A stretch of 64,000 nt of DNA. Source: Utricularia gibba. Lineage: Eukaryota > Streptophyta > Magnoliopsida > Lamiales > Lentibulariaceae. The stretch is taken from assembly GCA_002189035.1 (NCBI GenBank), contig NEEC01000013.1, positions 2,232,001 through 2,296,000 on the forward strand, given 5' to 3'. This document shows, piece by piece, positions 7,622-12,166 of the stretch. Each line of letters opens with the position of its first letter. The first letter of the stretch is position 1. Position numbers and translations under genes: made by a program. The notes beneath the pieces were generated by a model. That model did no database searches. It had not been told where the DNA came from and was given only the letters and a program-made list of their open reading frames with translations.

Positions 7622-9133
7622 ATGTGGGAGGGATGCGATTTTCGTTTGGATCCATGGGGAGCGTCGCCGGCGTATCCGGCAGTTGTGCACGGCGGCGTTC
7701 ATGTTCTGGTGGTGGATCACGACAAGGAGGGGCTTTGCTACACGACCAACATGCTGGTGCAGTGCGGGTATCAAGGTTGGGTTCGGTTGGGCTGGATGCA
7801 TGATCATTGAGTTTAATCAACGCTGCAATCCGATGGTGATTTTCATTTTTTTTTCTGTGTATGTGTGTTCAGTCACTCCGATAGAGTACGCTTCGCCGGC
7901 ACTGGGGCTGCTGTACAGTGGGGAGTCCAATTTCGATGCCGTGATCGCCCCCGACGTATCTCCAGATCCGAGTAACTCCATCCTGGTGCAGAACGCCGTC
8001 GCCATGGGGATCCCGGTGGCTCGTAAGTTCCCATCGGGATCGGAACCTGGGTGAGTGATTGACTGAAGTGGTGTGTGTATCTGTGTTGTGCAGTGATGAC
8101 GGTGGACGACAATCAAGGCGCCGTGGTGAAGGCTTTGGAGAGGGGAGCGTTTCTGTGCATGAAAAAGCCGGCCACGATGAAAGTGCTGGGCGTACTCTGG
8201 CAGCATGTGGTCAGGGAGAGGATGAGGACTCTGAGGGAACGGGACGCTATGATGGCGGCGACGGCGGATCTCCGGTTTGCGGAGGGCCCGAGTTCGGATT
8301 ACGCTCATAAGGTAAGTGGGAGAAAGAAGCACGGATATTATCAGCAGCAGCAGAGCACTAGCAACAATATCAGAAAAAAGATGTGTACCGATTGGACGGA
8401 GGAACTGCACGCCAAGTTCGTGGCGGCCTGCAATGAGTTCCCCGACGGAAGTACGTTCGCCGGAAACTAATTCCTTTTAACGTACTAAAATACCTACATC
8501 CCTTGTTCCTCTGATTGTTTTCTTTGATGATCATTCCTGAAGCAGAGTGCTTCCCCAAGGAAATCATGGAGAAGATGAAGGTGGAGGGGCTCACCAGAAT
8601 GCAAGTCGCCAGCCACCTACAGGTTTCCCTCAATTTCCGATATCTCATAATTGTTCGATTTCGACAAATTGGTCTGAGAATTACATTAAAATTATTAAAT
8701 CTCTGCGTAGAAATGCCGCAACGAGAACTGGAAGTCGCCGGACCAACGGAGGAACCAGGGCGCGAACTCGCCGTCGGGTTCGAATCCCGGTTCGAACCAA
8801 CCGCGACCGCGAAGGTTCGGCGCGAAGCCAGTGTTCAATAAGCACAACCCCAGCAGCCCGTCCATATCCAGCCGTACAGAGAATTGCAGCAGCACGCAGC
8901 CCCCTTCCTCCATCGCCGACTCCGGTGACCGGTCTCTGCCGCCAAACCGATCCCAAGACACGATCCACAACCCGCCGGCCCCGTACTCGAGGTATCCTCA
9001 GCAACCAGGTAATGAATACACTCCCGAATCACTTCATATTGCAGTTGAAAGTCAGCGTTGTTTCACTACAGATGGAGATGTAAAGCCGCCATTGACTTTG
9101 AGCTTTTTGCCTCCGGCCGAGAAAGAGAAGTAG
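7622..9133 (+). CDS. Divergent type-B response-regulator-like protein (pseudo-receiver + GARP/Myb domain), copy 1
   Basis: Exons 7622-7775, 7873-8022, 8094-8450, 8546-8622, 8711-9008 and probably 9072-9133 join in frame; the last intron would be only 63 bases and read-through is also open. The N-terminus MWEGCDFRLDPWGA precedes a receiver-like domain (HVLVVDHDKEG, LMTVDDN, RGAFLCMKKPAT, VLWQHVVRE). The phospho-Asp position reads VIAPDVSPDP: aligned to copy 2 it is Pro, so phosphotransfer is unlikely. The switch Lys (MKKP) is kept. A GARP domain follows ([31 protein letters not shown]) with Met-Gln and Cys where type-B regulators normally have Glu-Asn and Tyr. Type-B regulators are nuclear cytokinin-response factors; here a phosphorylation-independent DNA-binding role is inferred. 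Tandem paralogue at 10416. Confidence 0.85.
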
Positions 9134-10415
9134 CAGAACGCCGATGTGCGAGCCGCCCGTTTGCAGGCTCCGGTTACATATGATCCAGAAATATATGGGA
9201 TTTTTAGGGTTTATACATATAAATATATACTTATTAATTATGTTGCGTAGAAAACGTGCATATTTCGAAATATAATATATTTAATTAAATAAAAAATATT
9301 GGACTATGAAAATGCTCTATCATATCCGATCATGCCGCATGAAATTTCGGATTTTTTTTTGCTATAATAAATTACTGGGGCTTTTTTTTGAATGGCTTTT
9401 GCACGAAATAAATTAGCTTTTTTGAATTAATTTGGATCACTACCCTTATTTTGTTTATAATACTTATATGTGTAATTACTTTATTACCCTGCTGTATTTT
9501 TGTTTATTTTTACAGTAAAAAAATAAAAAATACCTAATTATAAGTATTTCAAATTTAGTTATTACATATTTTATAATTCTGAAAAACATTAAATAAATAA
9601 AATATACATTAGTATATATTAATAACTCATAATATATATTATTTAATTATAAAGATGAATATTCTATTTGTGTGAATTATTTATCATTTTTTCGATTCTA
9701 AATAGTCTAAAATACAATATAGTGATACGATTTTTTTATGATACCATGTAAATACGGCGCCATACTAAACATTCTCGTTTTGTTTTATCGTATTTTGGAT
9801 TAATTGAAATGATTATATTATACAATAATGTGTTAGTAACAGGATTAACTTTAAAAATACTTCATTCATATAATTTTGTATAAATATGATATAAAATGAT
9901 TAATAATTATTTTTTAAAAAAAGACCATATGCATCACATGTTTATTTAAACCCAGGGATGATTTATTATTATTCATATTCTAAAGCGGTAAAAACATCAT
10001 CAACATTCCTATTTATCCATTTGACTGAGCAAGTAAAAGCTTGCTATGAGCATAACAAATATGCTACTCGCAAAATGGGAGCAGTTACTGTGTATTTTGA
10101 CCACCAGAGGAAAGATTTTTACCGCCTGGGTGCAAATTATTACTGCAAATTACCAGTCAAACACACGAAATCTACTTGCAAATTGCAATGTTACGCTCTT
10201 GAAATTTATACAATAACATTACTTGCAATTACCCATTGTTATCCCACTTGCTTTTTTATTTTTATTTTTCCCATTTGATTAAAAATATATAGGAATAATA
10301 AATACTAATTGATTAAAAATATAATACAGGGGTTTGATTCTTCTTCTATATATGTATCGCGTACCGATGCGGGATTAGGAGGATTCGTTTAGAGAGAGCG
10401 GCAGCTGAGGAAGTG
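9134..10415. other. Spacer between tandem response-regulator-like genes
   Basis: AT-rich. An open frame at 9958-10278 (106 codons) resembles nothing I know and lacks codon structure. No transposon ends or other remnants that would explain the duplication are evident. Confidence 0.45.
10346..10354 (+). promoter_or_regulatory. TATA-like element of second response-regulator-like gene
   Basis: CTATATATG about 62-70 bases before ATG 10416, parallel to the element before copy 1. Confidence 0.45.
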
Positions 10416-12166
10416 ATGTGGCGGGAGGGCGGTTTTCATGTGGATCCGTGGGCGGCGTCGTCGTCGCTGCCGATGCCGTACCATGGGGTGGTGCACACCG
10501 GCATTCATGTTTTGGTGGTGGATCATGAGAAGGAAGGGCTCCGGCACACCTGCCATATGCTTGAGCTTTGCCGGTACCAAGGTTTCGTTTCTGTACCCAT
10601 GGGCTGTGTGCGATTTGTCTGTCATGGGTTCGTCGGACTCCGGTGGGTGTCGTAGTGTTTAAGGGGGTTTGTTTGTTTGTAATACATGGAACGTTTTGAA
10701 TGGGTTTTACTTGAGCTGAGTTGTTAAGAAACTGTGATCAGTGACTCCGGTGGAGTATCCTTCGTCGGCGTTGGCGATGCTGTTGAACGGAGATCCCAAG
10801 TTCGATGTGGTGATCGCGAATGTTCAATCCCCGGATCTTCATAGCTCCACGCTTCTGCAGCACGCGGTCACTGTCGGCATCCCGATCGCACGTAAGTTAA
10901 GTTTTACCGGACGGTAGATGGGATTAGAATGGAATGGAATGGAATGGAATGGAGACTGACGCTCGGTGTCTGATGCAGTGATGACGCTGGACGACAATCC
11001 GGTGATCGCGATGAAGGCTCTGGAGAGAGGCGCGTTTCTGTGTATGAGAAAACCGGCGACGATCGAGATGCTGAGCGTGCTCTGGCAGCACGTCGTGAGG
11101 GAGAAAGCCAGAATTATGAGAGAGCGAGATGTTTTAATGGCAGCAAAGCATGCCGCCGCGGCGGACCTCCGATTCGGGGAACTCCCTAGTTCCGATGATG
11201 GCAGTAAGGGAAAGGGTAAAAAAACGGTCAAGGCTGCAGGAGGAGGAACAAGGATTACTGATTACGAAGATGCCCGGGATCTCCGATATCCTCATCATCA
11301 CTGTAACAGTAATGTCAAGAAGAAGATGTGTACCGATTGGACGGAGGAACTTCACGCCAAGTTCGTCGCCGCCATCGAAGAGCTCGGAGAAGGAAGTACG
11401 GTCGCCGGAAAATATTCCACAAACACATTCTTTTTGACATATATTTATTTTATTTACTTTTTTTCACAGGGTGTTTTCCCAAGGAGATCCTGGAGAAGAT
11501 GAACGTACCAGGCCTCACAAGAATGCAAGTCGCTAGCCACCTCCAGGTTCATCGGGAAATCAATTAAACCTTTTTTAGAAGAATATTAATCTTCTTTTTT
11601 TCGTTTTTCAAATAGAAATGCCGCAATGACAACTGGAGGTCGCCGGAGGAGCGCAGGAGCCAACAAGCGAACTCATCTTCCGCTTGGCAGTCTTCAAGCG
11701 GCAGGCACCAACCCCGGCCACGGCGGTTCGGGTCGAAGCCAGTGCTCTCCAAAACCATCTCCGATGGCCAATCATTATCCACCCCTTCCAACGACGCCCA
11801 TCCCTCGATCGCCGACTCCGGCGTCGGATCCCTGACCCGCCCCGAGGATTTCTTCAATCTCTCCGACATGGATTCTCTGGTCCACAACCTGTCCAGCCCG
11901 GAACGCAAGAACTCAACTCCATCACGACCGTTGCCATCCGCTTTCTCGAGTTATCATCAACTGGTAGGTAATGATGCATGCATATGTTTCTTTCTTGATT
12001 GAAACAGTGCGTTTGGCTCCGGTCTGTGTGCGCCGCCGCTGATCCTCCAGTTGTGCAGAACCCAGAGGGACAGCGTGTGGAGATGAAGAGCAGTTGGAGC
12101 CCGAGCCTGAGCCCGAGCCCGAGCCTGAGCCCCACCCCCAGCCCGAGCCCCCGCCATGACCGGTAG
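10416..12166 (+). CDS. Divergent type-B response-regulator-like protein (pseudo-receiver + GARP/Myb domain), copy 2
   Basis: Exons 10416-10581, 10742-10891, 10979-11395, 11470-11546, 11616-11963 and 12059-12166 join in frame; the internal junctions share phases with copy 1. The product starts MWREGGFHVDPW and has HVLVVDHEKEG, FDVVIANVQSPDL (Asn at the phospho-Asp position), LMTLDDN and RGAFLCMRKPAT. The GARP domain reads [23 protein letters not shown] then [15 protein letters not shown]. It is followed by PRPRRFGSKPV, shared with copy 1 (PRPRRFGAKPV), and SIADSG, also shared. The last exon ends in a Ser-Pro-rich repeat (SPSLSPSPSL). A tandem duplicate that retains exon structure. Regulation by phosphorelay is doubtful; DNA binding is inferred from the GARP fold. 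Confidence 0.86.
10927..10953 (+). repeat. (GGAAT)n short tandem repeat in intron 2
   Basis: About five head-to-tail copies of the GGAAT pentamer between exons 2 and 3 of the second response-regulator-like gene. Confidence 0.85.
12093..12150 (+). repeat. Coding minisatellite (Ser-Pro repeat) in last exon of copy 2
   Basis: Repeated 6-base units of the AGCCCG / AGCCTG type encode alternating SPSL and SPSP at the C-terminus. Copy 1 lacks it. Confidence 0.8.

Follow-up and report, generated by a model that had tools for sequence, protein, structure and literature searches.

Two adjacent genes in a 64-kb window of the Utricularia gibba genome (the whole stretch of DNA analyzed; its contig spans 3.2 Mb, and the plant assembly comprises 100 Mb in 516 contigs) encode proteins with a receiver domain and a GARP domain. 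The genes adjoin on the same strand with GT-AG introns (Table 1), and their open frames, splice sites and domain matches agree with the first-pass annotation, which had described a tandem receiver-GARP pair with matching intron phases. The exon set of copy 1 was also recovered by a spliced aligner written for the present analysis. Matching intron phases were considered as a sign of a special pair and were rejected, as the pair has the intron positions and phases that all ordinary type-B genes in this genome share. The second intron of copy 2 carries a GAATG microsatellite (window 10927-10953).

Table 1. Coordinates, in the window, of the two receiver-GARP genes and their parts.
Feature	Position	Strand	Basis or remark
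Copy 1, type-B-like pseudo-response regulator	7622..9133	+	open frame, GT-AG sites, spliced alignment
Copy 1 exons	7622-7775, 7873-8022, 8094-8450, 8546-8622, 8711-9008, 9072-9133	+	final 'intron' uncertain; the stretch 8711-9133 could be a single exon
Copy 1 receiver, split by introns 1 and 2	7694..8225	+	alignment to ARR1: His at D44, Pro at D89 and Cys at Y135; D43 and K138 unchanged
Copy 1 GARP, split by introns 3 and 4	8385..8722	+	Pfam Myb_DNA-binding PF00249; PDB matches ARR1/ARR10-B
RRFGAKP motif, copy 1 tail	8810..8833	+	regex on fetched loci
Copy 2, paralogue of copy 1	10416..12166 (end at ~12160)	+	open frame, splice sites
Copy 2 exons	10416-10581, 10742-10891, 10979-11395, 11470-11546, 11616-11967	+	then alternative 3' ends
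Copy 2 receiver	10503..11107	+	ARR1 numbering: His at D44, Asn at D89 and Cys at Y135; D43 and K138 unchanged
Copy 2 GARP	11324..11633	+	phmmer to ARR1 GARP, E 2.6e-15
RRFGSKP motif, copy 2 tail	11721..11744	+	regex on fetched loci
GAGCCC x 9 minisatellite, copy 2 last exon	12097..12150	+	Tandem Repeats Finder

The roles of Asp89, Asp43-44, Ser116, Tyr135 and Lys138 have been described for ARR1 (PMC11903765), and residues of the two receivers were numbered from an ungapped alignment to this protein (PDB 8xat). The phospho-acceptor Asp89 aligns with Pro in copy 1 (VIAPDVS) and with Asn in copy 2 (VIANVQS), and the metal ligand Asp44 aligns with His in both, giving acidic pockets that read VDHD and VDHE, respectively. 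The switch Lys (KKP in copy 1 and RKP in copy 2) and a Ser/Thr at position 116 are kept, and the alignment thus bears out the missing phospho-accepting Asp, altered pocket and retained Lys noted at first reading. The two receivers are 63% identical to each other, and copy 2 matches the ARR1 receiver by phmmer (E 1.4e-18); Pfam Response_reg gives copy 2 an E of 6e-6, which is below the cut-off, and leaves copy 1 unreported. An Asp directly follows the Pro of copy 1 (APD), and a shifted acceptor at this residue is formally possible; the register of copy 1 is fixed by the ungapped alignment and the SPD motif that follows. The substitution in copy 2 is the same as that in ARR2 D80N, which has been reported to be partially inactive (PMC10454580).

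Further analysis of the same genome by protein search identified two additional members, at C1:2557k and C414:2436k, both unlinked to the pair. The phospho-site is Arg in the former and Ser in the latter, and the metal site is altered in both. Across the four genes, the residue aligned with Asp89 is therefore Pro, Asn, Ser or Arg, that aligned with Asp44 is His in three and Asn in one, and Tyr135 is replaced by Cys in all; of the D-D-K phosphorylation site, D44 and D89 are lost and K138 is kept in three of the four. Nine ordinary type-B genes in this genome keep Asp89, Asp44 and Tyr135 together with the motif LTRE[NH]VASHLQK[YF]R. All four divergent genes read LTR[ML]Q[VI]ASHLQKCRN[ED]xW, and a degenerate DNA pattern for KCRN[ED]xW matched exactly four sites in the genome, each in one of these genes (a reversed control pattern gave one match). 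A tail motif, R[RK].?FG.[KM]P, was likewise found only in these four members within about 297 kb of fetched sequence.

In maximum-likelihood trees, the four genes form one clade, with a support of 100/97 for the GARP domain (28 rows) and 100/100 for the receiver (16 rows); branches are long in the receiver tree, with which the GARP tree agrees independently. Since the pair falls in this clade in both trees, its shared changes are not due to chance, and because all four genes carry them, the changes are older than the tandem duplication, as had been proposed, and probably predate all duplications in the clade. The two adjacent genes are real, but the natural unit is the four-gene clade, two members of which are unlinked, rather than the tandem pair originally put forward. 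No relatives were found among viral contigs, and the only match on a prokaryote contig was rejected as a chance match to a bacterial flagellar locus.

Both GARP domains scored above the Pfam cut-off for PF00249, with matches to ARR1, ARR10-B and LUX. The altered recognition helix reported for the two copies was confirmed and is also found in both unlinked paralogues; the LTREN sequence to which it had been compared is not near-universal, since LTREH and LTREQ are also seen among the ordinary type-B-like genes of this genome. Predicted DNA contacts of ARR2 are N259, S262, H263, Q265, K266, R268, I269, Y270, R272 and W221 (PMC10454580). According to the alignment, the four clade genes keep the W, S, H, Q, K and R contacts of the ARR2/ARR10 models, including the core required for ARR2 function (W and HLQ), and differ at four predicted contacts (Asn to Gln, Ile to Asn, Tyr to Glu/Asp and Arg to Trp). 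With the base-contact core kept, the changed DNA specificity put forward at first reading is no more than plausible; an ARR-like (AGAT-type) core would likely still be bound via the conserved W and SHLQK.R residues, and the flanking preference may have shifted.

The change most relevant to mechanism, which the first-pass annotation overlooked, affects the residue aligned with ARR1 Tyr291. In unphosphorylated ARR1, the receiver clamps the GARP domain and holds it shut, with Tyr291 deep in a hydrophobic receiver pocket, and phosphorylation of Asp89 releases GARP; the authors of the ARR1 study infer that GARP must be freed before DNA binding (PMC11903765). Eight ordinary type-B genes of the genome analyzed here have Tyr or Phe at this plug position, and the four clade genes have Glu, Asp, Glu and Glu. 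This one residue and its neighbors suggest that the receiver-GARP interface has been lost in the clade.

Comparison of the two copies by the Nei-Gojobori method gave an overall dN/dS of 0.35, with values of 0.29 for the receiver, 0.16 for the GARP domain and 0.43 for the tail; dS was 0.67-0.95 overall and in the two domains, and 1.3 in the tail. Both domains of the pair are under purifying selection, which is looser than in ordinary type-B pairs (dN/dS 0.02-0.08 and 0-0.05). With a ratio well below 1 and intact frames, the genes are selected rather than decaying, in line with the initial suggestion. A dN/dS several times that of ordinary pairs is compatible with both relaxed constraint and new function.

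The absence of Asp89, the ARR1-like receiver and the PF00249 domain support the assignment of these proteins as pseudo-response regulators with a GARP domain, and we consider that the four-gene clade probably represents phosphorelay-independent type-B pseudo-response regulators in which GARP is not phospho-gated. Independence from the phosphorelay, which had already been suggested for the pair, is the best reading of the changes at Asp89, Asp44, Tyr135 and the plug, and is drawn from sequence. The clade proteins would be nuclear-type receiver-GARP transcription factors that take up no phosphate from the cytokinin/His-Asp phosphorelay. Because the plug has been lost along with the phosphate acceptor, with Asp44 and the receiver Tyr135 also gone and the plug position acidic, GARP would probably be ungated by phosphorylation, and could either act constitutively or be controlled by expression or protein partners. 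The sequence changes, the clade and the purifying selection were computed directly, and loss of gating, like DNA binding and the direction of regulation, is something we infer from them. A fuller version, in which an old and hitherto undescribed clade without phospho-acceptor, metal site, switch Tyr and Tyr plug has a constitutively open GARP domain, a shifted binding site and four copies, is possible but doubtful.

A different role, as competitive repressors or decoys that dampen cytokinin output by occupying type-B target sites or by binding phosphotransfer proteins via the dead receiver, appears unlikely. The gene models give short proteins of about 365-426 aa that end in short Ser/Pro-rich tails and not long Gln-rich ones, which could fit such a role, as could the core DNA contacts that are kept and the purifying selection that persists on the receiver; moreover, AHP6 is a precedent for a pseudo-protein acting as an inhibitor (PMC3866579). 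However, no repression motif was shown in these proteins, and type-B proteins have other DNA contacts at the end of the helix, so that shared target sites are not assured.

Even less credit is given to a weakly constrained lineage drifting toward pseudogenes, which would account for a dN/dS about 4-10x that of ordinary type-B pairs and for the loss of about 12 receiver residues around helix 2 in the C414 member. Copy 1 also evolved faster than copy 2 with the C414 gene as outgroup (16 vs 5 unique changes, p 0.027), a difference that was not significant with the C1 gene (11 vs 5, p 0.21). Against such drift, domain frames and splice sites are intact in all four genes, dN/dS is well below 1 in the receiver and GARP, and the same derived motifs are retained in four old copies. 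Orthology to the known type-B pseudo-regulator APRR2/PRR2, which has the same make-up of an Asp-less receiver and GARP (PMC12745483, PMC11831784), is highly improbable and was rejected, as the APRR2 GARP is GLK-like (PMC11082045) and that of the pair falls outside the GLK-like GARPs of this genome, with the four members apart (100/97).

Type-B pseudo-response regulators, to which the preferred reading assigns the four genes, are an accepted class in which an Asp-less receiver is joined to Myb/GARP (PMC12745483, PMC11831784), the best-known member being PRR2, with a GLK-like GARP (PMC11082045). The clade is a divergent branch of this class, set apart from PRR2 by the lack of a GLK-like GARP. 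With ARR1, ARR2 and ARR10, it shares the order of receiver and GARP, intron positions, GARP fold residues and W/SHLQK.R contacts; by comparison, it lacks Asp89, Asp44, Tyr135 and the Tyr291 plug, and has KCR instead of K(Y/F)R and, in the gene models, a short Ser/Pro-rich tail. APRR2/PRR2, petunia PaPRR1-2 and barley HvPRR1-3 resemble the clade in joining a receiver without the phospho-Asp to Myb/GARP, whereas the APRR2 GARP is GLK-like and the clade motif is type-B-derived. The clock TOC1/PRR family also has receivers without the phospho-Asp, but the clade receivers group apart from these in the tree, and no CCT domain was reported by Pfam in copy 1 or copy 2. An Ehd1-like rice type-B regulator probably resembles the clade in having Gln at the second of the variable positions in its recognition helix, and differs in keeping the phospho-Asp and KYR. 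A literature search for the literal GARP motif gave no match, and a description of the clade was not found in open papers. How phosphorylation frees the type-B GARP has been stated to be unresolved (PMC11903765), and a clade that has lost the phosphate site and Tyr plug, with its receiver still under selection, offers a natural comparison for which interface residues matter; if the preferred reading is true, it would be a branch of cytokinin-type regulators that left the phosphorelay.

The 3' ends of both genes allow more than one reading. The last 'intron' of copy 1 may be exonic because it is 63 nt long, a multiple of three, and open in frame. In copy 2, leaving intron 5 unspliced leads to a stop at 12002 and a protein that ends in ...QLVGNDACICFFLD; the acceptor at 12050/12051 (exon 12051-12166) causes the repeat to be read as Ser-Pro, and that at 12058/12059 (exon 12059-12159) as Glu-Pro. 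The GAGCCC repeat behind the previously described Ser-Pro minisatellite tail is therefore real, and Ser-Pro is one of three splice readings; aligning the DNA of the final intron and exon did not decide between the tail frames.

Elsewhere in the genome, divergent GARP genes form a second tandem pair (C412:1071k and 1073k), in which one motif is VKRRQVASHLQTYR and the upstream receiver is barely recognizable, and there are also three type-B-like GARP genes (C213:1596k, C4:3048k and C413:2040k) with no receiver recognized in the fetched flanks. Within the window, a 31-bp tandem duplication lies downstream of copy 2 (12299-12359), and the gene directly after copy 2 is TAF9-like (12673-13433); a second, stop-containing TAF9-like piece at C255:1458k is perhaps a decayed duplicate. 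An intronless intact ORF of 432 aa (1741-3039) resembles, by eye, an N-myristoyltransferase, and the ORF at 38812-39534 appears, also by eye, to encode a WUSCHEL-type homeodomain.
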